From Flavobacteriales bacterium (lineage in GTDB: Bacteria; Bacteroidota; Bacteroidia; Flavobacteriales_F; PHOS-HE28), in assembly GCA_019912395.1 (NCBI GenBank), contig JAIOIH010000087.1, positions 1 to 64,000 of the forward strand: DNA of 64,000 nucleotides. Reading direction: 5' to 3'. The notes below the pieces were generated by a model. The model was not told where the DNA came from, made no database searches, and saw only the letters and a program-made list of their open reading frames with translations. This document shows, piece by piece, positions 1-48,989 of this stretch. The translations under genes and the position numbers were made by a program. How positions within the stretch are numbered: the first letter of the stretch is position 1; each line of letters begins with the position of its first letter.

Positions 1-135
1 ACCCCGAGTTGTTCACAGAGCTAACAGTGATCAACAAAGAGAAAAGGACCAAAAGAGAAAAATCACAACACAACCAACAAATCGAGTTGACAGAACACTG
101 AAAAGAGGTCAACGTCTGGCAGGACTTGACAGCCT

Positions 136-152
136 GACAACCGACAACTGAC
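136..152. repeat. Dispersed palindromic element, single arm
   Basis: The 17-mer GACAACCGACAACTGAC is identical to the right arm of the element inside argS at 35091-35107 and shares its first 14 bases with 48489-48502. The left arm is not recognisable here. It lies just downstream of the DUF1573 gene stop, in an otherwise gene-free window edge (1-163). Confidence 0.7.
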
Positions 153-163
153 AACCGAAGAAC

Positions 164-14693: not shown

Positions 14694-15092
14694 GCTGCGA
14701 TGATACGAAGTGCAGAGGAAGGAGGAGGCCAGCTGCACCCCCGCACTTAAACCGTCATCGCGACGAGGCTCTGCGAGGAAGCGGCACGAGTTTACCTGTC
14801 GAGCCAAACCCAATCGTGTAACCATTCCCTCTCCCTCTTCAACGCATCCCATGGTCTCGCCCAACGAGATCCGCGACACGCAGCGGACCCTGAAAGTAGC
14901 GCAAGGAATCACCCCACAATGCGTGTCATCGCGAAGGGGTTGGCTGGCGCGGTGGCGCAGGCCAACCCTGAAGCGCCCGGCAATGTAGCGGGTCAGGCAG
15001 CTCCGATACGTATCGGTTGGCACCGTCAGGCCAAATGCTCCTTTCGGAGACAGCCATTTTCTGATCCACTGATTTTCTGATCGTCTGATTGA
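14694..15092. other. Gene-free spacer with degenerate repeats
   Basis: About 400 bp without a convincing gene. It contains two fragments built on GTCATCGCGA (near 14756 and 14926), the first continuing into GAGGCTCTGCGAGGAAGCGG, which resembles the dispersed repeats with CGTCATTGCGAGGA-type cores seen in many genomes. The right end carries the 18-bp repeat at 15072-15089. The small frame at 14710-14988 has biased, repeat-derived composition and no leader, so I do not call it. Confidence 0.5.
15072..15089. repeat. 18-bp dispersed repeat, copy 1
   Basis: ATTTTCTGATCGTCTGAT, identical to 24865-24882. It is preceded by CTGATCCACTG, giving a run of CTGAT units. Located 3 bp beyond the stop of the T9SS gene at 15093. 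Confidence 0.75.
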
Positions 15093-16085
15093 CTACGGCA
15101 TCACCACCAACCGCCCCGTGTACATGGGTTTTCCGGCTGCGGTGGCTGCGACTCCTGCGGTGGCTGAGGCCCTCGAAGCCACCCGCACCACATACGCCCC
15201 CGGTGCCAGCATTCCCGCAGGCAGGGAATAGCGCTCCGCGCCCGCAGGCCAAGCCCCTTGCCACACCACGCGCCCGCTGGCATCGTGGATGTACAACTCG
15301 GCCTGCGTTAACTGTTCATTTGCGGAAAACACCGTAGCGCCCGCGCTGGGGTTGGGCACAATGGCCAAGGGGCGTGCAGCCTCCAGTTCGTGAATGCCCA
15401 CCGTACCCTCTTGGAAGAGGATGTCGTCGATATAGTACTGGCCGAGAGTGAATAACCAGCCGGATGCGGCCTTGAAGCGAAGGGAACCCAGCACATTGGG
15501 CGCGGGCAGGCCGCTGGGCATGGTGTCAAAGTTCCAGGAACACACCAAGCTGTTGTTCACGAGGAACGAAGCGGTCCGGTCGTCCAGGTCAAAGCCCAAG
15601 GTCACGGTGAACCAGGTATTGTGCGGGTAATTGCCGGTGTATGTGGCCCCATTGGCATCGCAGGTCACCGTGTTCATGGTGGACGGGGTGAAAGTGATCA
15701 CGGCGGCAGGCGCGTCTGAAGCAACATCCTCACCGTGGACCAGCATGAGTATGGCACCCCGCTGCGTTGGAACGAACATGCGCCAGCTCAAAACGTAGCT
15801 GCCCCACACATGGTAACCCAGCAAAAGAACTTCGTCCACCGGACCGCCATCGATATCCTGGATCATCTGGACGAATTCCAAGCTGTTGTTCGGGCTGTTG
15901 GACAGCGTATCGGTGACGGAAGCGTCCTCATTGGTGCCCGCCACGCCGCTCACCGTGCGCCAATGCACCGGGTCGCTTGCGGCAATGCGGTCGCCCGCCT
16001 GCAGGCTGTCGAAGTTCTCCGAAAAGATCACTTGGCCCAAGAGCGATGCCGGCACAAAGGCGAGCAGAAGGAGGAAACCCTTCAT
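15093..16085 (-). CDS. T9SS cargo protein with LamG-like domain (duplicate module, third gene)
   Basis: A 330-residue exported protein: signal peptide (MKGFLLLLAFVPASLLGQ), a concanavalin/LamG-like jelly-roll region (about 20-225, starting VIFSENFDSLQAGD and containing NTWFTVTLGFDLDDR), and a T9SS type A domain (about 235-330, IVPNPSAGA, GAYVVRVA, GRLVVMP). It is a close paralogue of the 338-residue protein at 17966. Its ATG overlaps the stop of the upstream gene as ATGA, indicating translational coupling. A short repeat is inserted in the sorting domain at 15161-15180 and is read in a different frame than in the paralogue. Probable role: surface-exposed binding or structural protein. Confidence 0.85.
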   Translation of the reverse strand: MKGFLLLLAFVPASLLGQVIFSENFDSLQAGDRIAASDPVHWRTVSGVAGTNEDASVTDTLSNSPNNSLEFVQMIQDIDGGPVDEVLLLGYHVWGSYVLSWRMFVPTQRGAILMLVHGEDVASDAPAAVITFTPSTMNTVTCDANGATYTGNYPHNTWFTVTLGFDLDDRTASFLVNNSLVCSWNFDTMPSGLPAPNVLGSLRFKAASGWLFTLGQYYIDDILFQEGTVGIHELEAARPLAIVPNPSAGATVFSANEQLTQAELYIHDASGRVVWQGAWPAGAERYSLPAGMLAPGAYVVRVASRASATAGVAATAAGKPMYTGRLVVMP

Positions 16086-17605: not shown

Positions 17606-17889
17606 CGTACGATGGAGAACGAGGTGGAAAGCCCGGAACCGCCCATATGGACCTTGTACAACCCTGCTGGCAATGCACTCAGGTCCAAGCGGCTCAAGCC
17701 GTTCTCCTCGGCTTGATGCACCAAGAGGATGCGTCCTTGGGCATCCATGATCCGGATCTCATCACCCTTCTGCTCAACCGGCCATTTGAGGTAGGCCTCG
17801 GTACTGGCGGGGTTGGGGTAGAGGAGGCGGTACGGATCGGATCGTTGTCCTTGTGTCATTTTGTTCGGGTATATGTACGCCATTGCCAA
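17602..17889 (-). pseudogene. Truncated copy of the beta-helix T9SS gene (sorting domain only)
   Basis: A 95-codon frame whose last ~75 residues match the C-terminus of the 20514-24583 product almost residue for residue (YPNPASTEAYL, WPVEQKGDE, LVHQAEENG). The first ~20 residues (MAMAYIYPNKMTQGQRSDPY) have no counterpart and no signal peptide, so the product could not be exported. It keeps the ATGA overlap with the following gene. It may persist because its translation feeds ribosomes to the downstream gene, which is inference. The duplication breakpoint is near 17824. Confidence 0.8.
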
Positions 17890-17965
17890 AGTACTGCGTT
17901 CGTTGGTCCGTGGCCTTCCGGTTTGAGCATCGGTCCGCTACAGAAAGGACCGGTGAACGCGTCTC

Positions 17966-18982
17966 TCACGGCATCACCACCAAACGCCCGGTGTACAAAG
18001 TTGCCCCCGCTGCGGTGGCTGATGTGCCCTGAGGCTGAGATGGCTGAGGCCCTCGAAGCCCCGAAGCCACCTGCACCACATACGCCCCCGCCGCCAGCGT
18101 TCCCGCAGGGAGGGTATACCGCTCCGCACCCGCAGGCCAAGCCGCTTGCCACACGACGCGCCCGCTGGCATCGTGTACCTCTACCTGCGCGTTGCTCGCA
18201 GGCATGTCCATGGAAAGTACCGTGCCGCTCGCCGTGGGGTTGGGTGCCATGGCCAAGGGGCGCACAGCCTCCACCTCGTGTATGCCCACTACGCCAGATC
18301 GGAAAACCACGTCATCAATGTGGTATCGCCCCGGACTGAGCCAGGATCCAGATTGTGCTATAAACCTTACGGCACCAAGGATGTTTGGGGCGGACGTGCC
18401 ACTGGGCATGGTGTCGAACTCCCATGAACCTATTTGTGTGTTGTCGATGCTCAATGTGGCCAACCTCGAATCCAGATCAATGCCAATGGTGACCGTGAAC
18501 CAAGTGTTGCGCGGATAATTACCTGTGAAGACCTCTCCGTTGGCGTAGACCTCGATGGGGCCTTGCGATGAGGTGCCAGCCGGGTAGAAGGCGAAAATAG
18601 CGGCCGGTGCTGCCGAAGGAATGTCCTCGGTATGCAAAAGAGTAATCAACGCACCACCATCATCATGGACATTCATGCTCCAACTCAATACGTAACTACC
18701 AGCAAGGTGATAGCCTAAAAGCAGAGCCACATCCCGGGGTGCGCTGATGTTGGCAACGACAGATTGTATGAATGACAAGCTGTTGGGGATGCTTTGGCTC
18801 AGACTGTCTTGGATAGGCGCATCCTCCGTGGGGCCGGGCGGGTCGCTCCAGGTGCGCCAGTGTACTGGATCGACCGCAGCGATCTTTTGGCCGACTTCAA
18901 TGCCGTCAAAATTCTGCGAATAGATCACTTGGCCTATTACCGTGAAAGGCAGGATGGCAAGGAGGAGCAAAGCCGATCTCAT
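17966..18982 (-). CDS. T9SS cargo protein with LamG-like domain (third gene of complete module)
   Basis: A 338-residue exported protein, paralogue of the 330-residue protein at 15093. Signal peptide (MRSALLLLAILPFTVIGQ), LamG-like jelly-roll (about 20-230, VIYSQNFDGIEVGQ, NTWFTVTIGIDLDSR), T9SS type A domain (about 240-338, MAPNPTASG, GAYVVQVA, GRLVVMP). Its sorting domain contains a repeat-derived insert RGPQPSQPQ. Start overlaps the upstream stop (ATGA, 18979-18982). No catalytic residues are apparent; carbohydrate or protein binding is the likeliest role by fold only. Confidence 0.85.
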   Translation of the reverse strand: MRSALLLLAILPFTVIGQVIYSQNFDGIEVGQKIAAVDPVHWRTWSDPPGPTEDAPIQDSLSQSIPNSLSFIQSVVANISAPRDVALLLGYHLAGSYVLSWSMNVHDDGGALITLLHTEDIPSAAPAAIFAFYPAGTSSQGPIEVYANGEVFTGNYPRNTWFTVTIGIDLDSRLATLSIDNTQIGSWEFDTMPSGTSAPNILGAVRFIAQSGSWLSPGRYHIDDVVFRSGVVGIHEVEAVRPLAMAPNPTASGTVLSMDMPASNAQVEVHDASGRVVWQAAWPAGAERYTLPAGTLAAGAYVVQVASGLRGPQPSQPQGTSATAAGATLYTGRLVVMP

Positions 18983-20517
18983 TGTACAAAAAGCTTGGCA
19001 CCGGTGAGGATGCGATGCGCATCACTGATATGCGCACTGTAGAAACCCGCAGGTTGACCCGTCAGGTCCAATGTGATGTCCTGTGCCAATTGCCCGCCAA
19101 GGTTCCGGTTGACCACCAAGCGGCCCCGTGCATCGTACACTTGGAGTTGCAAATGCCCCTCCAAGTGCAAGCCTTCCGGAAGGTCCAGCGCCAAGTTGAT
19201 GCGACCCGTGCCCGGATTGGGCCAAGCCCGCAGCGCATGTTCCAGCCCGTATGCGATCTCATTGATGCCCACATATTGGCAACCGGGGACCAAGCAGCCC
19301 TCGGCATCCAATTTCAGCAGCCACATGTTCACGTCGCTATAGGGGGGGACCGTGTCTCCGTTCCAGGTCTCGCCAGTGAGCACCATGCCCCCGTCACTTG
19401 TAGGTTCTATGTCCCATGGGATTTCAGGGAATGCGGTTGGATTGACCACATTGCCAAAGTGTGCATAATCCCGCCGCCAAAGGGAATCGCCGTCTGCCGT
19501 GAAACGGTAGATAACCGCCCGGTTCCATGCAAGTTGTTGGATGGGGCCACAGACGATAAATGTGCTGTCGCTGTCTTGGTAGCCGTCGGTGAAGAACGCT
19601 TTGGTATAGGAAGTCGGTTTGCCCTTCAGCCCGCTGTACTGCCATTGCAACGTGCCGTCATCGGAATACATCGCCAAGTACATGGTGTTATCATAAGGTT
19701 CGCCGGGAGGGGGAAGAATATAGGATTGCCATTCACCCATGCAAAGCAACTTGTCTCCGAAGACATGCTTTACGCCCCACCAATTACCCTTTGGCTTGGG
19801 CTGATAAGCATGCCACAACTCGTCGCCCATGCTGTCGATCTTGAGCAGATAACCCTTTCCGTTACCAATGTCCCTACTCTTCCCTCCCAAATACATGTTT
19901 CCTTGGTCATCGACATCCAAGGTCATGGGCATGTCTAGGGTAGGGTCTAGGCGAAAAAGTTCAATGTTTGCCGAAGTATCCGTACGCATGACGTAGCCAT
20001 TGTTGCCCAAAAGCACACCTGAAGCTTCTAAGCCAGTGAAATAGAAATGATCGCCTTTAGCTATGGCCTTGACCGCAGATGCAAAAGTGTCCGATAGAAG
20101 AGGTTTGGTCCAGAGGGTATCCCCAAATGCATTGAATCGAACTGCAAAGACGGTATCCACAGGTTCGCCGCCGCTGAATGTAGTTTGGCCAGCAACAAAC
20201 CCACCACTGGGAATTGTGCCTATCGGGTCTTGGCTTCCGAATCCCTCGAAACGAGGACGATGCAAGTAGTATTCATCTACGAACAATCCCGCTTCATTGA
20301 AGATAGAAATGCTACAATCCTGATTAACGGTATCCAGTTCAGTTTGTGATCCGAAGACAATATACCCGTCGTGTATTTCCCGCACAGAATATCCTACGGC
20401 GAAACCGCTGGACACATTGGAATGGACAATGTCGAAGGTCGTTTGGGCAAAGGATTGAAGGCCCCCCAAAGAGAGGCTGGCCAAAATGGCCAGCCTCATT
20501 GCTTGGGTCGCGATCAT
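18979..20517 (-). CDS. T9SS cargo protein, propeller-like (second gene of complete module)
   Basis: A 512-residue exported protein with signal peptide (about 1-24, LGGLQSFAQ), a central region with repeated motifs (VFAVRFNAFGDTLWTKPLL, GYLLKIDSMGDELW, FTADGDSLWRR) compatible with a beta-propeller, and a T9SS type A domain (about 425-512, RAWPNPGTGR, PAGFYSAHI). Paralogue of the gene at 16082. It overlaps both neighbours by 4 bp (ATGA), so the three genes of the module are translationally coupled and probably made in fixed ratio. Function unknown. Confidence 0.87.
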   Translation of the reverse strand: MIATQAMRLAILASLSLGGLQSFAQTTFDIVHSNVSSGFAVGYSVREIHDGYIVFGSQTELDTVNQDCSISIFNEAGLFVDEYYLHRPRFEGFGSQDPIGTIPSGGFVAGQTTFSGGEPVDTVFAVRFNAFGDTLWTKPLLSDTFASAVKAIAKGDHFYFTGLEASGVLLGNNGYVMRTDTSANIELFRLDPTLDMPMTLDVDDQGNMYLGGKSRDIGNGKGYLLKIDSMGDELWHAYQPKPKGNWWGVKHVFGDKLLCMGEWQSYILPPPGEPYDNTMYLAMYSDDGTLQWQYSGLKGKPTSYTKAFFTDGYQDSDSTFIVCGPIQQLAWNRAVIYRFTADGDSLWRRDYAHFGNVVNPTAFPEIPWDIEPTSDGGMVLTGETWNGDTVPPYSDVNMWLLKLDAEGCLVPGCQYVGINEIAYGLEHALRAWPNPGTGRINLALDLPEGLHLEGHLQLQVYDARGRLVVNRNLGGQLAQDITLDLTGQPAGFYSAHISDAHRILTGAKLFVQ

Positions 20518-23500
20518 CTTACGATGGAGAAGGAAACGGAAAGTCCACTACCGTTCAAGTAGACCTTGTAAAGCCCGGCTGGCAGTTTGCTCAGGTCCAA
20601 GCGGCTCACGCCGTTCTCCTCGGCTTGATGCACCAAGAGGATGCGTCCTTGAGCATCCATGATCTGGATCTCATCGCCCTTCTGTTCCACCGGCCATGTG
20701 AGGTAGGCCTCGGTACTGGCGGGGTTGGGGTAGAGGGCCAGCGCAGGCCGTGCTTTGGTTGCGACCGAGGTTGCGGGTACTAGTCTTGGTGCGGGTCCTT
20801 CCCGGGGGAATTGCACCTCTGGCACGTATTCGGTGAAATGGTGGCTAAATAATATCCCACCGGCCATGGCGGCCCCGGCACCGCCGGCACGCATGTGCTG
20901 GTCCAGTACATCCACTTCGCTACCGGTCAATTGGTCCCATTGCCCGTCGTGGTCGGCCCCGGCTTTCCACAGGTCGGTATACGTTTGCCAGCCGTTGAGT
21001 CTTTCCGCCGGGCCGGTCAGTTCCGTTTCGGCCGCGCTCCAATCCCCGTCGGAGATGTACATGGCCGTTCGGACCTGTGTGTAGTCCGGATCGGTGTCCG
21101 TTGCCAGTAGCAAACGCAGGCTGTCCACACCTCCTTCGTAGGTGCTGTCAGTTCCATACATGTAGCCGAGCGAGGCCAATGCTTGCGCCTTCTCCCTCCG
21201 GCGCTGCTCGATCTCCTGTTCCATCAACTGTTTCCAATCGGCCCCGGACCCCTCTTGGGCATCGTCCACCACGCCGAAATAGAAGGGACTGAGCAGTTCC
21301 TTTGCCAGGGAGATCACTCCGGGGTTCAGTTTCACATTGGCTACCAGCACTTGGGTGAGGTGCCACGGGTCCATGGCGGGTTCCCGTTTCAACATGGTCA
21401 CCATCACCTCGTCGCTCAACGGGCTATTGGCCAACAGGGTATTGCGCAACGTGCTGCTGGGCAAGGGAGGCTCCTGCTTGATGAGCAGATCGATCAGGTC
21501 CGGCTTTTCCCCGGCATCCAAATTTCCGTTGTAGGCATCTAGCGCGGCGTCCAGTTGGCTCTTCGCCAAGTGGTATATTAATACATCGCCCGGTATGGTG
21601 TGCTCATGGTCCAATAACCCGTCTCCGCAGGCTCCGTTCGCGGTCCATATACCACCACCATCACTGGTTCCTACTGGAATGTCAGCAAAATCCGGCCATT
21701 CGCATTGCACATCGCAAACTGGGTCATCGTTGCGGAACACATTGAGGTGCATGTCATTGTACCAGCCTTGCACGTGGTTCCAAGCGGGGTCAAGGTTCCA
21801 GTCCCAGGAATTGGTGCAATTGGCCGTTGTGAGGAAGCGGTTTCCGGAAAGCTGCTGGTTCGGATAACCTTGGTCCGGCTTAATGATGCTGGATTCCAGC
21901 AGGGCGATGTCGTAGATGTTGTCCGTGAAATCACCACAGAAAAGGCTCAGGCCGGCGTCGATCTTACCATAACCACCGTTGCGGTGAATGTCCTTCACGA
22001 TGGAACCTGCATACAATCCGGTGAAGGTGTTGTTGTAGATCTGGTTGTCGGTGTAAACCCAGCTATTGGGGTCCAGCAGGGGTGAAATGCCCTTGAAATA
22101 GATACCCACGTTCTGGCTGTTCCCATCTCCGGTGAACGTGTTCCGTTCAATGGTATACCCTTGGGGCTGCCAGAGGTACATGCCGACGGATGGGATCATC
22201 GTGTTGCCATCCCCAGGCACGTCAAACTGGTTGTTGGTATAGCGCGAATAGCTCGTGGCCAAGTCATGGATGCCCCATACGTTGCGGGTGAAGTGTACGT
22301 TGTTCACCGTAGAGGGTGCCAAAGCACCCGCAACATTGACCACGCCATAGGTCAGATTGTCGATCGTGCCACCGTTCACGTTCACTTGCCCGTTGAATGC
22401 CAGTACACCGATCCCGTTCATCAATGCCGGGTCCCCGGATTGGTTCAGGAAGCTGCAGTTGTTAAAGTAGACGATCCGGGTGTTGCTGATGAGGGCATTT
22501 GCGTAGGGAGGGGCCAGGTCCGGCCTGTCTGTGTCGGTGATGAAGGTGGTGGTGGTGAAGGAAGAGTGCTGGGAATTCGGGTAGTTGGCGATGCGAACCC
22601 CGGTAAGGCAGTTCTTGATGGTGCTGGAGTAGGCACGAACGATGCCGCCGGCATATCCGCCCGCCGGATAATTGCCACTTTCCCTCTCGCACCACACGCC
22701 CACTACCGCGTTGGCCACGGTGGTGTTGGCGAGGTACAGGTAACCTTGAGCACCGTTGACCATAGGGAATTGGCTCGCCGTGGTGTTGCCCTCCACGCGG
22801 ATACCGGGCCAGCGCCTGGGTTCGCAATTTTCATCCAATGTGCCCTGTAGAAGGCAGTTGGTGAACTTCACGAATGCGCCACGTTCTATTATCAAACGTG
22901 CGGTAGGAGCGAACCGCCAGTCCATGTCCTGCACATAAAGCCGGGCCCCGGTATGGACGATGTAATCCTGCTCGAAGTAGGCATGGCCAACGAAGCCCGT
23001 GCTACCCGGAGGCGCCGGGCACAGGATCGGGTCCGTAAGTTCATTGTCGTCCGGGGTCCACGGATCGGCCTGTGTAGTGGTTCCGCTGAAGTCATTGAGA
23101 TGGCTGGCCTCCGGGATCCTCTCATTATCCTGGCAGCATTCCTGCCGTTGCAGGTTCGGTATCTGCTGGTCGCGGTAGTTCTGTTTGTCCATCAGGTACT
23201 GGTTCCACCCCGGTGTTTCCGCAGTGGACAAAATGGAGTTCGGAGGCGGTGCCAACGGGGTCGTCCCGGCGGAAACCGATGCGGTCCAGGTGAAGGTGGG
23301 GGATCCCGGATTTTCAATGTCGTTCAGGCAGCCGATGCCACTGGCGGACGGGAAGTACATGGACCAACCAACACCCCCGGGACCTTTGTTGCAGGCGATC
23401 TGTCCATATCCGAACGCGTTCATGCCGGAAAGCCCCAATTGGGCCACCAGGTCATGTACCGTGTAGGAGGCGTCCAGCATGTCGATGTAGCCAATGTAGG

Positions 23501-24583: not shown

Positions 24584-24861
24584 TTGAGGGTTTGGTTTTG
24601 GGGTATGACAATGCTATGACAGAATGAAGCCCACAAATGTTATTAGGGTGCAGCATGATTTTTGCTGCGGTTCTTAGAGTGCTCTCATAATTATTCCAAA
24701 ATACCGAGCTGGGTATTGCATGTCTGGAGCTGGCACGATATTTAGTGGATCGTCCAAAAAATAGTTTTCAACAGCTGCTCTTTGCTGAAGCAAGCTCCCC
24801 TTTTCGGGGGATGAAGTGCGGCTGTATTAGTGGATCACGGTCGGCGGAAGATGCTGGTCCT
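24584..24861. other. Spacer with possible IS630 transposase remnant
   Basis: Upstream of the giant gene. The leader before ATG 24583 is A/C-rich (CAAAACCAAACCCTCAA). On the minus strand, 24741-24780 reads LLKTIFWTIH then stop, resembling the transposase end TAKHYWTIL of the IS at 57261 and sharing GGATCGTCCAA. The 10-mer TTAGTGGATC occurs at 24742-24751 and 24827-24836. No gene is apparent. Confidence 0.4.
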
Positions 24862-26133
24862 CTAATTTTCTGATCGTCTGATCGTCTGGTCCCCAAACAT
24901 CCTTCGCAGTCGCCGCCCATCCGCCCCATTCGGCCACAGGTCCATGAAGGAGGAACCCGTAATGCGCATGAACGCGATGGTCTGGTACACCGCATTGATG
25001 CAGTAGGCGAGCGTGGCGGTTATGGCCGCGCCTTCAAGCCCGAACACCGGGATCAATGTCAGACCTGCCGCGATCGTTACCACGAGTCCCAGCCCGGAGC
25101 CGATCACGTTATGGATGTTCCGCGCCGTGCCGCTGAAGAAATGGCTGTATGCCTGCGAAGCCGCCATGCTGAGGATCCCCGGGATCAGCAGGGCGATCAA
25201 CGGGGAAATGCCCACTACTTCCGGACCAAAGACCCACTGGAAGACGGATGACGGAAGGAGCACCAGCACCGCGACAACGGCGGTGGCAAAGGCCATGGAG
25301 GTCTTGAGGAAGGTGAGCGTCAACAGCCGTTGTCCTTCCATTCCTTCCGTGTTGCTGATCTTGCTGTAAAGCACTACGGCCAAGCTCTTCGGCACCAACC
25401 AAGCGCCTTCCGCCAGTTGGTTGGCGACGGTGTAGATCCCCAACGCCGCAGTGTTCTGGAATTTCTCGATCAGCCAGTACGCCAATCGATAGTTCATCAG
25501 TTGCATGCCATTGGCCATTTGCACGTATGCGCCTTGGCGCACCAGCAAACGCAACACCTTCACGGGTGGCGCAGCATGTACGGCTACGTTCCTGCGCATG
25601 GCGGCGATGCTCAGCACCAGCGCAACCGCAATGGACAAGTACGAGGCCGTGATGAACACATGGGCATCGGCTCCGGGATCGCGGGCGAGAAAGGCAAAAG
25701 CCGCCACCAGCACCAGCGCTTGCACCACAGCGATCAGGTTGTTCGCCCGGATCCGCTGCTGGCCGATGAGCACGCTGAGGTGTATGGCGTGGACCCCTTG
25801 CAGGAAGGCCAGCACGGCCACAGGCCCGGCGTAGCCTTCCGGCACCAGTGCGAAGAGCTCCACGATGCCATAGCCGGCCACCGCCGCGATCACGGCCCAG
25901 AGGTAGCACGGCCGCAACAAGCGACCCAGCGCCACGCGGGGCACCAAGTACACCAAGGCACTTCCCCCAACCAGGTCCATGCCCAAGCGTACCAAGGTGA
26001 TCCCCAGCACGATCAAGCCGATGGTGCCCAGCCCCGTGGCACCCAGCCGATGCCCGGCGATCACCGCTACCAGCAAGCCCATCGCCGTGGTGATGATGCG
26101 TGCCGCAATGGTGCCGGAGATCGCCTTCAACAT
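24862..26133 (-). CDS. Polysaccharide flippase (Wzx/MATE-like)
   Basis: A 423-residue multi-pass membrane protein with about twelve hydrophobic segments spread along the length. The N-terminus (SGTIAARIITTAMGLLVAVI, GATGLGTIGLIVLGI) and overall pattern are those of O-antigen/oligosaccharide flippases, which move lipid-linked glycans across the inner membrane. It is the third gene of a glycan operon, 3 bp after the formyltransferase-like gene. Its last codons (QTIRRSEN) and stop come from an 18-bp dispersed repeat (24865-24882), so the native C-terminus was probably replaced. Confidence 0.85.
   Translation of the reverse strand: MLKAISGTIAARIITTAMGLLVAVIAGHRLGATGLGTIGLIVLGITLVRLGMDLVGGSALVYLVPRVALGRLLRPCYLWAVIAAVAGYGIVELFALVPEGYAGPVAVLAFLQGVHAIHLSVLIGQQRIRANNLIAVVQALVLVAAFAFLARDPGADAHVFITASYLSIAVALVLSIAAMRRNVAVHAAPPVKVLRLLVRQGAYVQMANGMQLMNYRLAYWLIEKFQNTAALGIYTVANQLAEGAWLVPKSLAVVLYSKISNTEGMEGQRLLTLTFLKTSMAFATAVVAVLVLLPSSVFQWVFGPEVVGISPLIALLIPGILSMAASQAYSHFFSGTARNIHNVIGSGLGLVVTIAAGLTLIPVFGLEGAAITATLAYCINAVYQTIAFMRITGSSFMDLWPNGADGRRLRRMFGDQTIRRSEN
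24865..24882. repeat. 18-bp dispersed repeat, copy 2
   Basis: Identical to 15072-15089 and followed by a further partial CGTCTG unit. Here it encodes the last residues of the flippase. Confidence 0.75.
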
Positions 26134-28983: not shown

Positions 28984-29058
28984 GGTGGATGTAGCTCAGT
29001 TGGTTAGAGCGCCGGATTGTGATTCCGGAGGTCGCCGGTTCAAGCCCGGTCTTCCACC
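28984..29058 (+). tRNA. tRNA-His (anticodon GTG)
   Basis: A full cloverleaf is readable: D-stem GCTC/GAGC, anticodon stem CCGGA/TCCGG with loop TTGTGAT and anticodon GTG at 29019-29021, T-arm GCCGG-TTCAAGC-CCGGT, acceptor GTGGATG/CTTCCAC with one T-T mismatch. The extra G at 28984 and discriminator C at 29058 fit the G-1:C73 identity of tRNA-His. CCA is not encoded. The 3' end lies within a palindrome (29049-29109). Confidence 0.95.
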
Positions 29059-29109
29059 CTTAAATGCGAAAACCCCGAAAGGGGTTTTTTGCATTTAAGG
29101 GTGGAAGAC
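29049..29109. repeat. 61-bp palindrome spanning the tRNA-His 3' end and terminator
   Basis: The 19-mer at 29049-29067 is the exact reverse complement of 29091-29109. Between them lies the terminator hairpin. The left arm includes the last ten bases of tRNA-His, so a read-through transcript could pair the acceptor strand with downstream RNA. Confidence 0.9.
29071..29090. terminator. Terminator of tRNA-His
   Basis: AACCCC-GAAA-GGGGTT followed by four T; A-tract on the other side makes it bidirectional in appearance. Confidence 0.85.
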
Positions 29110-33553: not shown

Positions 33554-35386
33554 ATGTTCCAAGACCCCCTCCAGGCCCAACTGCTGCCCGCGTTGCAAGC
33601 CGCTTTTCAGGAACTCTTCCAGCATGCGCTGGACCCCAAGGCCATCGCGTTCCAACCCACCCGGCCGGAGTTCGAGGGGGATGTCACGATCAATGTGTTC
33701 CCTTTTCTCAAGCTCAGTGGCAAGGGGCCGGAGCAGACCGCCACCGCCATCGGGAAGCACCTTCATGCGCACGTGGACGTTGTGGAGCGTTTCAACGTGG
33801 TGAAGGGCTTTCTCAACATCGTGATCGCGGATGCCTACTGGACCGATTTTCTGCGGGAAGCAGGGGAGAAGGGCATTCTGCAATTCCCTTCCTCCGGAGA
33901 CCAGGTAATGGTGGAGTATTCCTCGCCGAACACCAACAAACCATTGCACTTGGGGCACGCCCGCAACATCTTCCTCGGCGATTCCGTGAGCCGCATTTTG
34001 CAAGCGGCCGGGAATGACGTGGTGCGTGTGCAGATCGTCAATGACCGCGGCATCCACATCTGCAAGAGCATGGTGGCCTGGCTGAAGTTCGGCAACGGGG
34101 AAACCCCGGAAAGCAGCGGCCTCAAGGGCGATAAGCTCGTGGGCAAGTACTACGTGGCCTTCGATACGGCGTGGAAGGCCGAGGTAGCGGAGCAGATCGC
34201 GGCAGGAATGAAGGAGGACGAGGCGGAGAAGCAGGCACCGATCATGCTGGAAGCCCAGGAAATGCTCCGAAAATGGGAAGCGAACGATCCGGAGGTCCGC
34301 ACCCTCTGGGCGAAGATGAACGGCTGGGTCTACGATGGCTTCAACGCCACGTACGCACGCATGGGTGTGGGCTTCGACAAGATCTACTACGAAAGCGACA
34401 CCTACGTGCTGGGCAAGAAGGACGTGATGGACGGCCTTGAAAAGGGCGTGTTCTACAAGAAAGAGGACGGGAGCGTGTGGGTGGACAACACCCCGGACGG
34501 CCTCGATGAAAAGGTGCTGATGCGCGGTGACGGGACCAGCCTCTACATGACGCAGGACATCGGCACGGCCATCAAGCGGTTCGAGGAGTTCCCCGGCCTG
34601 AAAAGGCTCATCTATACCGTGGGCAACGAGCAGGACTATCACTTCAAGGTGCTCTTCCTGATCCTGAAGAAGCTCGGCTATGCATGGGCCGAAGGGCTGT
34701 ACCACCTCAGCTACGGCATGGTGGACCTGCCCACGGGCAAGATGAAAAGCCGCGAAGGCACCGTGGTGGATGCCGACGAGCTAATGGAGGAGGTGGTCCA
34801 GGAGGCACGCCTGGCCGGGGAGGAGCTGAGCAAGCTCGATGATTTTTCGGAGGATGAAAAGACCATTCTGTTCGAGCAGATCGGCATGGCCGCCCTGAAA
34901 TACTACCTGCTGAAGGTGGACCCGAAGAAGCGCATGCTGTTCGACCCCAAGGCCAGCATTGATCTGCAAGGGCATACCGGGCCGTTCATCCAGTACACGT
35001 ATGCAAGGATCCGCAGCTTGCTGCGCAAGGCGGGGGAGAAGTTCCCAGTTGTCAGTTCTCAGTTGTCAGGCGTTCAAGCGTCGGCAGCAGGACAACCGAC
35101 AACTGACAGCTATCAACTGAACCAAGAGGAACGCACCGTCATCAAGCTGCTGCACCAGCTACCTGCCGTGCTGAACGAAGCGGCCACGAAATTGGATCCC
35201 TCTTCCCTCGCCAATCACACCTTCGAACTGGTGAAGGCCTACAACGGCTTCTACCAGACCGTTCCCGTGCTGAAGGAAGAGGACGGGACCAAACGCAACT
35301 TCCGGTTGGCGCTGAGCAATGCCGTGGGCAGCGCGACAAAAAGGGCCTTATGGTGCCTCGGGATCGAGGTGCCGGAGCGGATGTGA
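33554..35386 (+). CDS. argS: Arginyl-tRNA synthetase with in-frame palindromic insertion
   Basis: A 610-residue class I synthetase charging tRNA-Arg. Order: N-terminal additional domain (about 1-110), Rossmann domain with HLGH at 132-135 in SSPNTNKPLHLGHARN, GNEQDYHF and SYGMVDLPTGKMKSREG (KMSK-equivalent), and the DALR anticodon-binding domain with IQYTYARIRSLLRKA and FELVKAYNGFYQ. Between RSLLRKAGE and EERTVIKLL the gene carries about 22 residues (498-519) encoded by an imperfect palindrome that also occurs between genes elsewhere in the window. The site falls at a linker in the DALR domain, so the enzyme probably tolerates it. Confidence 0.95.
   Translation: MFQDPLQAQLLPALQAAFQELFQHALDPKAIAFQPTRPEFEGDVTINVFPFLKLSGKGPEQTATAIGKHLHAHVDVVERFNVVKGFLNIVIADAYWTDFLREAGEKGILQFPSSGDQVMVEYSSPNTNKPLHLGHARNIFLGDSVSRILQAAGNDVVRVQIVNDRGIHICKSMVAWLKFGNGETPESSGLKGDKLVGKYYVAFDTAWKAEVAEQIAAGMKEDEAEKQAPIMLEAQEMLRKWEANDPEVRTLWAKMNGWVYDGFNATYARMGVGFDKIYYESDTYVLGKKDVMDGLEKGVFYKKEDGSVWVDNTPDGLDEKVLMRGDGTSLYMTQDIGTAIKRFEEFPGLKRLIYTVGNEQDYHFKVLFLILKKLGYAWAEGLYHLSYGMVDLPTGKMKSREGTVVDADELMEEVVQEARLAGEELSKLDDFSEDEKTILFEQIGMAALKYYLLKVDPKKRMLFDPKASIDLQGHTGPFIQYTYARIRSLLRKAGEKFPVVSSQLSGVQASAAGQPTTDSYQLNQEERTVIKLLHQLPAVLNEAATKLDPSSLANHTFELVKAYNGFYQTVPVLKEEDGTKRNFRLALSNAVGSATKRALWCLGIEVPERM
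35046..35110. repeat. Dispersed palindromic element inside argS
   Basis: Arms 35051-35067 and 35091-35107 pair at 15 of 17 positions around a 23-bp loop. The left part (35046-35070) matches 48358-48382 at 23 of 25 bases; the right arm is identical to 136-152. It is read through in frame as part of ArgS. Confidence 0.85.
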
Positions 35387-36463: not shown

Positions 36464-39400
36464 CTATCGGAACAGGGTGAGGTCGCCTGTTCGTTGTACT
36501 TCCTTGTTGTCCGTGAAGCGCACCCAGAGCTGGTAGACATAGACGTCCTGCTGGCTGATGTGCCCCTTGTAATAACCGTCCCAGCCGTGGTTGATATCGT
36601 TGCTCTCGAACACCAGTTCACCCCAGCGGTTGAACACTCGCATGCGGAAGTCCTTCACGAAACGGACAAAGGGGTAGAACACGTCGTTGCTGAGGTCCAT
36701 CGGGTCGAATGACCCGCCACCACCACCATTCGGATCGGGCGTGAAGGCGTTGGGGACCGTCACGTCGTAAACGGGGTTGATCTGCACTTCATGGTCCACA
36801 CTGCTGGTGCAACCGTGATCATCCGTTACCTGCAGCGATACCTGCCAAGTGCCGGGCTCCAAGTAGTGGTAGGCCGGATCGGGATCGATGCTCATACCGC
36901 CGTCACCGAAGCTCCAATCCCACGTATTGATCGAACCGGTGGATTGATCGGTGAACTGCACATCGGCATGGTCGGCATCGGTCTCCCACGGGTCTGCCGT
37001 GAAGGCCGCCACGGGAAGCGCATAGGCGTGGACCATGCCGGTGTTCAAGGCGTTCGCCACGCAGCCCAATGGCGTGGTGACGGTCAACGAGACGGTATAG
37101 TCCCCGGCCTGATACACGTGTACAGGCATCATGGAAGTGCTGGTGGTGCCATCGCCGAAATGCCAGAGATAGGAGACGGGTTGGTTGGTCAGACCTGCCG
37201 GGAAGTGCGCGGTGACCGGAGCACAGCCCTCGGCGAGGATGGATGGAAGCGTGATCGCCGGAGGCGCTTCCACGGTGATGGCGACGGTGCCCTGGAGGGT
37301 GTTCGCGCAAGCATCCGTGGCGGTCACGGTCAGGTTCCTACTGGATGTTGCCGGTACACTGAAGGGTCCGTTCCCGGTTGCTGGAAGTTGTGGCCAGGTG
37401 ATCGACACATTGCCCGGATAGCCCGTAAGCCAAGCTCCCACCGTGGCCGTTCCTCCAGGGCAAAAGGCTGTGTCCCCGTACGTGTGGAGCGTGGCCAGTG
37501 ATAGGTCGAGCACCGACACCGGAAGGTCCAGCATGGGTCCCGGACATCCGGCCTGGTCCACTACGGACACATGCACCACTTGGGTGGCGGGGAACGAGTA
37601 CTGGAGCGTATCCCCGGTGCCCATGCCCGCCCAGGTGATCGTATAGCCGCCAGACCCACCTGAGGCCTGGGCGGTGAGCGGTACGGGCGTGTTCACGCAA
37701 ACCGTGTCGTCCACTTGCGCCGTGAGCGTGATCGGGGTTGGTGCGGCCAAGGTGGCGGTGGCCTGTGACTGGCAACCGTTGGCATCCGTTACCACCACGG
37801 TATAGGCGCCGGGAGGCAATCCAAAGGCGGTGGAGGTGGTCTGTCCGTTCGTATTGCTGCTCCATTGGAAGGTGTAGCCCGGCGTTCCGCCCGAAGGTTG
37901 CACACTGGCCGAGCCATTGCTTCCCCCGACGCAGGCCGGTGGCGTCGCTGTCACGTTGGCCGCGCTCAGGACCGTTGGTTCCGTGATGAGGACGGATGCC
38001 GTGGTATCACAACCGTAGCTGTCGGTAACATGTACGGTAAACGTTCCGGCCGCAAGGCCGCTGGCTGTTGCGGTGGCCTGCGCTGAAGGGTCATCCCAGA
38101 GGTAGGTGAACGTGGGATCGTTCGGGGTGAACTGGGCGCTTCCCGAATGGTCGCCGTTGCACGCGAGCGGGTTGTTGCCAGTGGCCGCTCCGAAGAAGCT
38201 GGTGGGCAAGGTGATGTGTACGGTATCCTGATCGGCAGGGCAGGTGCTGTTCCCCGTGGTGGTGAGCACGAGGTCCACGCCGTTGGCCATGATCTCGGCT
38301 GAACTGGGCATGTAGCTCTGCTGAAGTCCGGTGCCGCTGAAGGTCCCGTTGCCGCCGGACCAACTACCACCCGTGGCGTTGGTGACGCTGCCGCTGAGCT
38401 GCACCGGCAGGGAACTGTAGCACCCGATGAGGTCGGCCCCGGCATTGGCCAGGTTCGGCTGCCCAAGAGCTTGGATGGTGGCGCTGCCCTGGGCGGGCGC
38501 ACAACCGTTGATATCCGTTACACTGAGCGTGTAGCTTCCCGCACCCGCAAGGATCGTGGCCGTGGTGTCCCCGTTGCTCCAGGTATACTGGTAGGGTGCC
38601 GTTCCTCCGGTCACCGTAGCCGTAATGCTGCCATCACTGTTGCCAGCGCATTGTTCGTCCACCACGGCCAAGTTCGCGATCGCAAGTGCAGCGGGTGCCG
38701 TGATCACTGTGCTCATGGTGGTATCGCAGCCGTAGCTGTCCGTTACCAGTATGCTGTAGTTCCCGGCGGAAAGGCTTGTGGCCGCGGCGGTGGCCTGCGC
38801 CGAGGGGTCGTCCCAGAGGTACGTGAATGAGGGGTCGTTCGGCGTGAAGGTGGCCGAACCCGTTGCCGTTGCATTGCACGTGGCGTTCACTGCGCTTACA
38901 TCGGCAGTAAAGAAGCTGGTGGGCAAGGTGAGGTGTACGGTGTCCTGATCGGCGGGGCAGGTGGCGTTGCCGGTGGTGGTGAGGATGAGGTCCACGCCAT
39001 TGGCAATGATCTCCGCCGGGGTCGGCATGTAGCTCTGCTGGAGCCCGCTACCGCTGAAGGTGCCGCCACCACCGGACCATACACCACCGGTGGCATTGGT
39101 GACCGTGCCGTTGAGCTGGATCGGCAGATCGCCGTAGCATCCGATGATGTCGGTGCCTGCGTTGGCGGTGTTGGGCTGCCCCAAGGCTTGAATGGTGGCG
39201 CTGCCCTGGGCCGTGGTGCATCCATTTTCATCCGTCACGTCCAGTGTATAGGTGCCTGCGCCGGCGTGGATCACGGCCGTGGTATCGCCGTTGCTCCACG
39301 TGTAGTGGTACGGTGCGGTTCCGCCGGTCACCACAGCGGTGATACTGCCGTCGCCATTCCCGGCGCATTGCTCATCCACCACGTTCAGGCTGGCGATGGC

Positions 39401-41278
39401 GAGGGCCGCCGGTGCGCTGATCACTACGCTCATGGTGGTATCGCATCCCGTCCCGTCCGTTACCAGCACGCTGTAACTGCCGGCAGCAAGTCCAGCTGCC
39501 GTGGCAGCAGTTTGTGCAGCGGGGTCGTCCCAGAGGTAGGTGAGGGAGGCGGTGTCGGGCGTGAACGTGGCCGTGCCTGTTCCGTCGCCAGCGCAATACA
39601 GGTCCGTGGACCCGATGGCGGCATTGAGAAAGCTGGTGGAGAAGACGATGTGTACGGTATCCAGGGCCGGACCGCAGGGAGATTCACCCGTGGTGGTCAA
39701 TACAAGATCGACCCCGCCGCTGGCGATCTCCGCCGGCGTGGGCATGTAGGTCGCGTCCAGATCCATTCCCGTGATGGTCCCGTTGCCACCGGACCACGTG
39801 CCACCCGGTGCGTTCGTTACCGTGCCATGCAGTTCCACCGGCAATGCGCCTTGGCATGCCACGAGGTCCTGTCCGGCATTGGCGGTGCTGGCTTGGTTGG
39901 CCTCGCCGATGGTGGCATCGATCGGCCCGTTCACGCAACCGTTGCCGTCGCTGATGGTCACTGTATAGTCCCCGGCACCCGCTACGATGGAGGAGGTGGT
40001 ATCACCGGTGTTCCATAGATAGTGGAAGGGGGCGGTGCCCACGTCCACCTGTACCGAAGCGCTCCCGTCACCGTTCCCGGCACAGGATTCGTCAATGATG
40101 TCCGGACCGATATAGCTGATGCCGGGCAAAACATGTATGGAGTAGACGTAGGTCTGCTGGGCGGGGATCGGGCAGGCACCATCGTCGGCATTGATGATGA
40201 ACGGGAAGAAACCCGTGGACCCCGCGATGCCCGTCCAACAGACGTGGACCGTGATCGGATTAGTACCGCTGAAGGAAAATGTGGCACCGGGCAGGTTCTG
40301 GGTGATGTTGGAGGTGGCGGTGAGGATGTTGCCGGGGTTCGGGTCGGAGATCACCGCATCAAAGCAGAAATCACCCGATTCGCAGATCTCCACCGACCGT
40401 GGACCGGTCTGGGTGGCTTGTCCGCTGAGGTTGGACACGATGCCCGTCGCGGGATCCGGTGGGATATTGGTGCAGGGATAGGCAATGAACTGCATGTCCC
40501 GCATCACCGAGCCGATCCAGTTGCCGGCAGCGTCGTACTGGTCCACGCGCACCACCACCACCCAGTTACCGGTCTGGTTCAAGGTGAAGTTCACCTCTCC
40601 GCTTTGCGGGTCCAGCGTGATACCGGTGATGGGTTGCGTACCAGTGAAGCCCGATACGTACGGGAGGGGCACGGCACCGGTGTTCATCGCACTGATGAAG
40701 GTGTAGGTCAGGGAGTCGTTCTCGGGGTCGAACGTGCCGTAGCTGTAGGATATCGGGTAGCCGGCGCAGACGTACGGTATGGCCGTGTTGGTGAACTGGG
40801 GAGAGTCATCGCAAGGGGCCAGTGCATTGTTCAACTTGGCTTCGATGTATACGTTCTTGTTACCCGGCTGAACCAGGTTCGCGATCGCTCCGTTGCGCCA
40901 ATTCTTGGTCCAGGAGATGGTCCATGAATCACAGGGGGGCAAGGTCACGGTGCCGGTGTAGATGTATTGCTGGATGCCGGGGAGTGTGCCGCCGTTGCAC
41001 GTGCTGTTCGGCAGCTCCAGGTCGCAGAGCTGGGAGATCTCCACGCCGCCCGGTGTACTTACCGTCATGGTCGAGTTCCCGCACGGACTTTGGATATCCA
41101 ATGGGTAGGAAGTGTCCAGGTTGATGCCCGCGCAATCCCGATAAACGACCAACGTGATGCGGTACTGGTTGTTCCCCAAGCAATCGTAGTAGATCTCACC
41201 ACCGGAGATGTGCGTGGCACGCGCCGTGGAGGCGAGCAGCAGGCACAACAGAATGGAAATGATCGGTTTTCGGAGCAT
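36464..41278 (-). CDS. Large gliding/adhesin-type T9SS protein with CHU_C domain
   Basis: About 1,604 residues from ATG 41276-41278 (MLRKPIISILLCLLLASTARA as leader; an ATG 27 bp upstream is less likely). Order: an N-terminal domain common in Bacteroidota surface proteins (THISGGEIYYDCLGNNQ), further Ig-like domains, three tandem 239-residue repeats (about 455-1100) each with an Ig-like part (TVTNATGG, SYMPTPAEI) and SprB-type repeats (TYLWDDPSAQ, GCDTT; YTWSNGDTTA), PKD domains (WHFGDGTTST, WDWSFGDGG), and a gliding-motility-associated C-terminal domain (VPNAFTPD, VFNRWGELVFES, GWDGYYKG) in the last ~90 residues. Likely a cell-surface adhesin exported through T9SS with the adjacent PorP/SprF. 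Confidence 0.92.
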   Translation of the reverse strand: MLRKPIISILLCLLLASTARATHISGGEIYYDCLGNNQYRITLVVYRDCAGINLDTSYPLDIQSPCGNSTMTVSTPGGVEISQLCDLELPNSTCNGGTLPGIQQYIYTGTVTLPPCDSWTISWTKNWRNGAIANLVQPGNKNVYIEAKLNNALAPCDDSPQFTNTAIPYVCAGYPISYSYGTFDPENDSLTYTFISAMNTGAVPLPYVSGFTGTQPITGITLDPQSGEVNFTLNQTGNWVVVVRVDQYDAAGNWIGSVMRDMQFIAYPCTNIPPDPATGIVSNLSGQATQTGPRSVEICESGDFCFDAVISDPNPGNILTATSNITQNLPGATFSFSGTNPITVHVCWTGIAGSTGFFPFIINADDGACPIPAQQTYVYSIHVLPGISYIGPDIIDESCAGNGDGSASVQVDVGTAPFHYLWNTGDTTSSIVAGAGDYTVTISDGNGCVNGPIDATIGEANQASTANAGQDLVACQGALPVELHGTVTNAPGGTWSGGNGTITGMDLDATYMPTPAEIASGGVDLVLTTTGESPCGPALDTVHIVFSTSFLNAAIGSTDLYCAGDGTGTATFTPDTASLTYLWDDPAAQTAATAAGLAAGSYSVLVTDGTGCDTTMSVVISAPAALAIASLNVVDEQCAGNGDGSITAVVTGGTAPYHYTWSNGDTTAVIHAGAGTYTLDVTDENGCTTAQGSATIQALGQPNTANAGTDIIGCYGDLPIQLNGTVTNATGGVWSGGGGTFSGSGLQQSYMPTPAEIIANGVDLILTTTGNATCPADQDTVHLTLPTSFFTADVSAVNATCNATATGSATFTPNDPSFTYLWDDPSAQATAAATSLSAGNYSILVTDSYGCDTTMSTVITAPAALAIANLAVVDEQCAGNSDGSITATVTGGTAPYQYTWSNGDTTATILAGAGSYTLSVTDINGCAPAQGSATIQALGQPNLANAGADLIGCYSSLPVQLSGSVTNATGGSWSGGNGTFSGTGLQQSYMPSSAEIMANGVDLVLTTTGNSTCPADQDTVHITLPTSFFGAATGNNPLACNGDHSGSAQFTPNDPTFTYLWDDPSAQATATASGLAAGTFTVHVTDSYGCDTTASVLITEPTVLSAANVTATPPACVGGSNGSASVQPSGGTPGYTFQWSSNTNGQTTSTAFGLPPGAYTVVVTDANGCQSQATATLAAPTPITLTAQVDDTVCVNTPVPLTAQASGGSGGYTITWAGMGTGDTLQYSFPATQVVHVSVVDQAGCPGPMLDLPVSVLDLSLATLHTYGDTAFCPGGTATVGAWLTGYPGNVSITWPQLPATGNGPFSVPATSSRNLTVTATDACANTLQGTVAITVEAPPAITLPSILAEGCAPVTAHFPAGLTNQPVSYLWHFGDGTTSTSMMPVHVYQAGDYTVSLTVTTPLGCVANALNTGMVHAYALPVAAFTADPWETDADHADVQFTDQSTGSINTWDWSFGDGGMSIDPDPAYHYLEPGTWQVSLQVTDDHGCTSSVDHEVQINPVYDVTVPNAFTPDPNGGGGGSFDPMDLSNDVFYPFVRFVKDFRMRVFNRWGELVFESNDINHGWDGYYKGHISQQDVYVYQLWVRFTDNKEVQRTGDLTLFR
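37975..39900 (-). repeat. Three tandem ~717-bp coding repeats in the adhesin gene
   Basis: Matching anchors recur at exactly 717 bp: AGCTGGTG at 38197, 38914 and 39631; GCGCTGCCCT at 38481 and 39198. This equals 239 residues per unit. Copies 2 and 3 are closest in sequence; copy 1 is more diverged. Confidence 0.85.
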
Positions 41279-41546
41279 GCGAGCGTAGCTTGGCTTCCCC
41301 GACACTCCTACGGATCAAGGACCGGGAGGTTTCAAGGACAGGTTGCCCGATCGGGGTGGTATGAGCGGGTTTCCCAACCTCAGCCGGGAGGGGGGGCATA
41401 CGCCGACCGGATCACCTCTTTGTGAGCTGCCCGGATCAACCCGGGCCCGGGATGCGCGTGCCGGGATATTCCCCACGCGCTGCCCGACGCAGTGGTACCC
41501 GTGGTGAATCGGCCTGGTTTACCTTCGCAACCCCCAACCCATTTCG

Positions 41547-48357: not shown

Positions 48358-48502
48358 CAGTTGTTTGTTCTCAGTTGTCAGGGTGACCTCGCCTGAATAG
48401 CGTTGATCGGACTTCTGCCTTTCGTATCGATTCCACTTCGTTTCCGGCACGATCTGGAATTGCGATCCGAAGCTTTTCGACCCAACCAGACAACCGACAA
48501 CT
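48358..48502. repeat. Dispersed palindromic element, diverged copy with long loop
   Basis: Left part 48358-48382 matches 35046-35070 at 23 of 25 bases; right arm 48489-48502 matches the first 14 bases of 35091-35107. The right arm ends inside the ribH stop codon (48501-48503). Confidence 0.75.
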
Positions 48503-48989
48503 ACGAGGTTAGCCTCCGGCGCAGCGCCGCCATTTGCAGTACTGCCACAGCAGCATCAACACCCTTGTTGCCGTGCTTGCCACCGCTCCGGGCCCGCGCC
48601 TGCTCGATGGTGTCGTCCGTGAGCACACAGAAGATCGCGGGGATCCCTGTTTTCAGCCCCACGTCCATGATGCCTTGCGCCGTGGCTTGGCATACAAAAT
48701 CGAAGTGAGGCGTTTCCCCACGCACCACGCTGCCGATGCAGATCACGCCATCCAGTGGGCGATGCTCCAACAGGAGCTGCGCGCCCAAGGCCAACTCGAA
48801 GCTGCCCGGCACGCCTTCCTCGTGAATGTCCTTCAAGGCCACACCGTGCTTGAGCAGGGTTTCCACGGCACCATCACGCATGGCCCCGGTGATCTCCGGA
48901 TTCCAAGCGCTTACCACCAGCCCCAAACGCAGACCGGTGCCCTTGGGGACACCGGCAGCGTCATAGTTCGAAAAATCCGTAGTGGCCAT
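48501..48989 (-). CDS. ribH: 6,7-dimethyl-8-ribityllumazine synthase
   Basis: A 162-residue enzyme catalysing the penultimate step of riboflavin synthesis. Family segments: VVSAWNPEITGAM, VPGSFELALGAQLLL, CIGSVVRGETPHFDFVC (with the catalytic His), and GIPAIFCVLTDDTIEQA followed by RSGGKHGNKG. Seven bp downstream of the TPR gene and probably cotranscribed with it. Its stop codon overlaps the dispersed palindromic element. Confidence 0.96.
   Translation of the reverse strand: MATTDFSNYDAAGVPKGTGLRLGLVVSAWNPEITGAMRDGAVETLLKHGVALKDIHEEGVPGSFELALGAQLLLEHRPLDGVICIGSVVRGETPHFDFVCQATAQGIMDVGLKTGIPAIFCVLTDDTIEQARARSGGKHGNKGVDAAVAVLQMAALRRRLTS

Follow-up and report, generated by a model that had tools for sequence, protein, structure and literature searches.

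The arginyl-tRNA synthetase gene (argS) of this Flavobacteriales bacterium contains, read through in frame, an imperfect palindrome built of 7-nt units, and the enzyme linker that it occupies is repeatedly colonised by unrelated repeats, which is the interesting part of the finding. We consider it probable that a dispersed repeat, spread by some machinery, inserted into this tolerant linker and is carried there as a neutral passenger. The gene lies at 33554..35386 (+) of the window, by which we mean the whole 64,000-nt stretch of DNA that was analysed, and encodes an intact protein of 610 aa with matches to Pfam Arg_tRNA_synt_N, tRNA-synt_1d, and DALR_1. With 384.6 bits against a cut-off of 261.65 over residues 13-610, it is a full-length match to TIGR00456, and the frame is open, as the preliminary description of this region had it. 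ArgS was present in 57 of the 58 relatives searched.

The palindrome is real and exceeds what is expected by chance. It spans 35041..35122 (+), as delimited by DNA folding and self-complementarity, is 82 nt long and corresponds to ArgS residues about 497-523 (FPVVSSQLSGVQASAAGQPTTDSYQLN). The left array (35046..35069, +) comprises 3.4 heptamers (CAGTTGT, CAGTTCT, CAGTTGT, CAG) and was recovered by Tandem Repeats Finder at period 7 and through further copies in the genome, to which we refer as family A. It is followed by a 22-nt spacer (GCGTTCAAGCGTCGGCAGCAGG; 35070..35091, +) and by an inverted right array of about four heptamers (CAACCGA, CAACTGA, CAGCTAT, CAACTGA; 35092..35119, +), which is a stop-free variant in the argS frame, so that (CAGTTGT)n stands opposite inverted (CAACTGA)n. 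Between the arms AGTTGTCAGTTCTCAGTTGTC and AGCTGTCAGTTGTCGGTTGTC, 18 of 21 positions are paired; this self-complementarity was equalled by 1 of 5000 random 74-mers from the window, and the single-stranded DNA fold has a z of -2.49 with pairing from 35041 to 35122. A palindrome had been described here as a 65-bp element at 35046-35110, and these values bear out the palindrome while extending its limits. The motif CAGTTGTCAG occurs three times in the window against 0.15 expected. An Rfam search with the element returned no family match, and of the tags GTAG and CGTC the former is absent from it and the latter is present in its spacer only.

The repeat encodes ArgS residues 498-519 plus a few more, in line with the 22 or so residues that had been attributed to it, but the net lengthening of the protein is smaller. 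Following the motif SLLRKA, this ArgS has a linker of 32 aa; the shortest congener linkers (G011 and G013) measure 15 aa, which puts the net gain at about 17 aa, or at about 12 aa if the commonest length of 19-20 aa is taken as the reference. Linker length is variable in all species, and part of the stretch may therefore be native sequence. In an AlphaFold2 model of ArgS (mean pLDDT 87.8, pTM 0.87), residues 499-516 are the sole long stretch with a pLDDT below 50. Helices 476-496 and 524-546 of the DALR (anticodon-binding) domain flank this stretch, which agrees with the location that had been proposed, and the prediction fits a disordered loop that would leave the ArgS fold undisturbed.

Using BLAST against its own genome, we found 68 family A matches merging to 40 places, counts that are lower bounds, with the best other copies matching the argS element at E values down to 5.5e-7. 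At least eight of the places are inverted pairs, with an inner boundary that is typically CAGG...CCTG, and many others are one-sided arrays. Copies between genes elsewhere in the window, as previously noted, are an array at 130..158 (-) and an inverted pair at 48358..48503 (arms 48358-48382 and 48483-48503), which is flanked by an ORF that ends at 48348 and by ribH, whose end is at 48501. The former adjoins a segment common to the starts of four contigs (C29, C38, C62, and C66): the first ~130 nt of the window are identical in all four and run directly into the family A array, after which the contigs diverge. A multi-copy segment, perhaps the leader of an rRNA operon or some larger mobile unit, thus has its border at this array.

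The recommended count of genic and other copies places family A inside genes at five of the 40 places: in ArgS, at two sites in MiaB, in a geranylgeranyl-reductase-type (GGR-type) flavoprotein (WELSVVSSQLPGQTTDNRRLTTLSCR), and in a PMT-type glycosyltransferase. The ArgS and MiaB inserts were compared with relatives. In the flavoprotein and the glycosyltransferase an in-frame copy is likely, as judged from repeat and domain context and, for the flavoprotein, additionally from alignment to a solved relative. If a coding density of 0.88 is assumed, the genic share falls far short of expectation (binomial p 2e-27), and therefore most insertions into genes have evidently been lost.

Several other features were observed in the window. 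A repeat with an 8-nt period and TCTGATCG units (family C, the type found in the ArgS linker of G010, G009, G021, and G025) is present at 15045..15094, with a second copy at 24854..24895. Two head-to-tail copies of a ~2.9-kb segment, 77-91% alike, occupy 15095-20740, each with a hairpin GAGGCTGGCC...GGCCAGCCTC (17554-17585 and 20466-20497). A 28-nt near-perfect hairpin at 29049-29109 overlaps the 3' end of a tRNA gene (28985-29058) and is likely a terminator. A PorP/SprF type IX secretion gene neighbours argS and indicates a Bacteroidota-like genome, and three 717-nt (239-aa) repeats lie at 38001-39926 within a large surface protein gene (36464-41305).

Alignment of ArgS from related genomes had been expected to show the inserted residues missing. 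In many congeners and outgroups the linker content is indeed missing or unrelated, but by score it is shared with seven congeners. Of 32 species, 8 have a linker whose likeness to (CAGTTGT)n attains the lowest p that the test allows (0.005), namely this genome (G000) and congeners G022, G005, G028, G032, G006, G018, and G019. Signals are weaker in G002 (p 0.04) and G004 (p 0.11), presumed to be older carriers, and this speaks against an old insertion. All scored carriers of a family A linker have at least 11 genomic matches to the family (Fisher p 0.0012, Mann-Whitney p 0.0006; the species are related, so that the points are not independent). The heptamer register of the right arm is the same in the ArgS genes of G000, G022, G005, G032, G002, and G028, and the linker residues of G022 are similar to those of this genome; among congeners the residues drift and the palindrome decays. 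The insert is shared with relatives and old in the lineage, not private to the species. More distant ArgS proteins carry unrelated residues at the linker, so the sharing of these residues with distant ArgS, which would have marked them as native, was not observed.

Other species fill the same linker with other repeats. In G024, G015, G033, G008, and others it consists of an 8-nt (GGGCACAT)n repeat encoding the peptide MGTWAHGHMGTWALL (family B), and in G010, G009, G021, and G025 of an 8-nt (GATCAGAT)n repeat encoding SDDQM (family C), both types being assigned by eye. Both units are dispersed repeats of the genomes concerned, GGGCACAT with 26-31 genomic matches in G024, G033, and G008, and GATCAGAT with fewer. 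G048 and G051, which represent two further families of the class, build the linker from other heptamers: (AAGTATC)5 in G048, whose genome contains eight more matches, and (ATCAACG)n in G051, where there are 26 others. That these lineages carry heptamers of their own is the strongest sign that the linker has been filled repeatedly by whichever repeat is resident. The linker is a naturally variable segment that several unrelated repeat families have taken over.

In an ArgS tree built without the linker, most family A carriers fall in one ten-species clade (support 85/98), with G005 and G018 outside; GGGCACAT carriers lie in two clades and GATCAGAT carriers are scattered. Constraining the carriers to one clade was rejected for A, B, and C (AU p 5e-33, 0.001, and 1e-94, respectively). 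The simplest history for family A would be one old insertion, since decayed, plus later colonisations of the same linker; the carrier pattern may fit independent insertion, loss, gene transfer, or conversion alike. The preliminary description is thus partly supported: its idea was largely right, with an insert that is older and more shared, and a net gain that is smaller, than it assumed.

The same pattern recurs in other enzymes and in a spacer. In MiaB of this genome (L091, G000:C2:10452-12071), family A is found in the loop after GQNVDSY, alongside two further heptamer arrays of the ACTGCCC and GGTGATT types, and again in the TRAM region. A solved MiaB has neither insert and aligns cleanly on either side of both. 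Ten relatives have the native loop (RWNVDSRGEVKDP or close), G022 and G004 carry family A in one MiaB loop, G006, G015, G009, and G022 have a peptide of the GATCAGAT type in the loop, and G012 has another heptamer. The corresponding loop of G005 MiaB (L154), PLSSGEGPGVR, looks like a translated copy of a further common GC-rich palindrome. A nucleotide cyclase of G026 and G033 contains family A between TYRLV and FTFTPRGKV, where G008, G025, and G023 have a different heptamer repeat and paralogues have nothing. In the rpsM-rpsK spacer, family A is present in G026 and G024, decayed in G023, and missing from G008 and G033.

We propose that an ancestor of several species of the genus acquired, in the anticodon-binding domain of its ArgS, a non-autonomous dispersed hairpin repeat made of two inverted arrays of 7-nt units, which settled in the variable linker that joins helices one and two of this domain. 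Only copies that kept the frame by their length and whose units avoided the TGA of the inverted heptamer would have survived. The encoded residues would form a flexible surface loop, tolerated rather than used, which has since drifted with the frame kept open, and the ArgS linker, like the MiaB loops, may have served as a safe harbour that different repeats entered independently in other lineages. The data themselves show the repeat family, the open frame, its absence from relatives, the several families at one site, and the predicted disorder; insertion as a mutational event, spread by some machinery, and neutrality are what we infer. The earlier view of a mobile repeat that invaded an essential gene without breaking it holds for dispersal and frame; because neither a mobiliser nor a target duplication was found, mobility follows from the dispersal only. 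A MITE would be marked by a target duplication and a transposase acting in trans. Among the genomes compared, no strain pair had an exact empty and an exact filled site, which would have given a target duplication or a dated event. The nearest species pair compared, G026 and G023, offered no clean junction at two elements, because G023 has a decayed copy in its rpsM-rpsK spacer and the cyclase has paralogues.

A broader reading is that inverted arrays of 7-8-nt units constitute one unrecognised class of mobile DNA, occurring across phyla, with a shared copying machinery, a unit whose sequence changes at constant length, and the ArgS linker as a preferred and not merely tolerant landing site; we regard this as unlikely. 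Exact matches to the inverted element, with two or more heptamers in each arm, occur in 18 contigs, titled as Bacteroidota (Lewinella, Hymenobacter, Bacteroidales), Planctomycetes, Acidobacteria, Desulfobacterales, and Sulfuricella. In a Phycisphaerales contig (L135, about 987-1127), family A is nested in inverted AAAAAGT/AAAAAGG arrays, as if arrays insert into each other.

Instead of arriving from elsewhere, the repeat could have grown in place, with replication slippage amplifying a chance heptamer of the linker and template switching folding it back. Units of 7-8 nt in tandem arrays and a linker whose length varies in all species fit such growth, but the units match a family at 40 places, the arms are inverted, and the spacer is partly shared with the copy at G000:C62:247481 (81% over query 34-76 in the BLAST of the own genome). 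Moreover, the linker type follows the repeat family of the genome, and the same families are found in MiaB and cyclase loops, so we consider local growth quite unlikely. Movement as a REP-like repeat by the Y1 (RAYT) transposases of the genome appears still less probable. Seven PF01797 matches were found in this genome and matches in 47 of 58 relatives, but the Y1 loci examined have GC-rich palindromes or inverted repeats of their own and no family A arrays nearby, the GTAG tag is lacking in the argS element, and in G007 (only 84% complete) 11 family A matches stand against none for Y1. A RAYT mobiliser is accordingly not supported by the loci examined, and no transposase could be linked to family A. 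Several of the Y1_Tnp genes (L112, L114, L115, and L117) are each flanked by different inverted repeats of their own, e.g. GCACTCGCGACACGCGAGCGC and CCCCGAAGGGGTCGCAGC.

It is very unlikely, too, that the insert is functional, with an mRNA hairpin or the extra loop tuning ArgS and the repeats kept by selection. The filling of the same site by different repeats in many species would agree with this, but neither sequence nor length is conserved, congeners G011 and G013 manage with short linkers, the loop is predicted to be disordered, and the palindrome decays in relatives. Native ArgS sequence resembling the repeat by chance, which the presence of a linker in all ArgS and the similar residues of G022 might suggest, is rejected as next to impossible on the copy matches (E 5.5e-7), the palindrome statistics, and the different content in most congeners.

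Under the preferred reading, a dispersed repeat accommodated in a tolerant linker, these data show protein-coding palindromes made of heptamer arrays in Bacteroidota-like bacteria, and at least five unrelated repeat families, spread over three bacterial families, that occupy one and the same linker of an essential enzyme. The case amounts to a replicated experiment of nature, testing which loops in essential enzymes can take up new sequence, and it is a good system for studying how heptamer arrays spread. It also calls for caution, as the sequence of such loops ought not to be taken as conserved or functional.

In outcome, the ArgS insert is a protein-coding palindromic repeat like the Rickettsia palindromic elements (RPEs) and the intragenic REPs. 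RPEs (Ogata 2000, 2002) are protein-coding palindromes of ~100-150 bp with a conserved peptide (PMC10969869, PMC2229807). As described there, they share with family A many palindromic copies, located in frame in unrelated housekeeping genes that remain unbroken, and such in-frame coding palindromes are found here in ArgS and, twice, in MiaB. In contrast to RPEs, family A has arms of 7-nt tandem arrays, an ArgS copy of 82 nt, a drifting peptide, and a Bacteroidota-like host instead of Rickettsia. The equivalence to the Rickettsia elements suggested earlier thus extends to the outcome and not to length, conserved peptide, or host: family A lacks the defining features of RPEs.

REPs of the GTAG and CGTC types have been recorded inside many genes, those of tRNA synthetases among them, different REPs lie at about the same recB site in two Xanthomonas species, and tolerance of such REPs in flexible linkers or loops has already been suggested (PMC3733652). 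Family A likewise consists of palindromes within genes, tRNA synthetases included, but has heptamer arrays in place of the end tag and single short stem of GTAG/CGTC REPs (PMC3733652); nor do its copies flank a RAYT gene as GTAG REPs do, the Y1 loci of this genome being free of family A. Lacking REP tags as well as the lengths and host range of RPEs, these arrays work like coding palindromes and are members of neither group.

Our literature search, which most subscription journals lay outside, brought up no report of ArgS genes with inverted heptamer arrays, and for the exact unit it returned one repeat, Nostoc csR1.1 (ttgtcagttgtcagttgtca), a direct array without a hairpin present in 44 copies between genes (PMC2408588). 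Its heptamer unit is identical to that of family A (PMC2408588). The TAACTGA repeats (MacGregor 2015) of Beggiatoaceae, Cyanobacteria, and five Bacteroidetes are direct and thought to be regulatory; in the type genome most of them closely precede start codons, and cases inside ORFs have been reported; stop codons in one of their orientations were noted by MacGregor (PMC4679880). Family A has a period of 7 and a unit that differs from theirs by one letter (TCAGTTG versus TCAGTTA), and its arrays are often inverted pairs and lie in frame in loops of conserved enzymes (PMC4679880).
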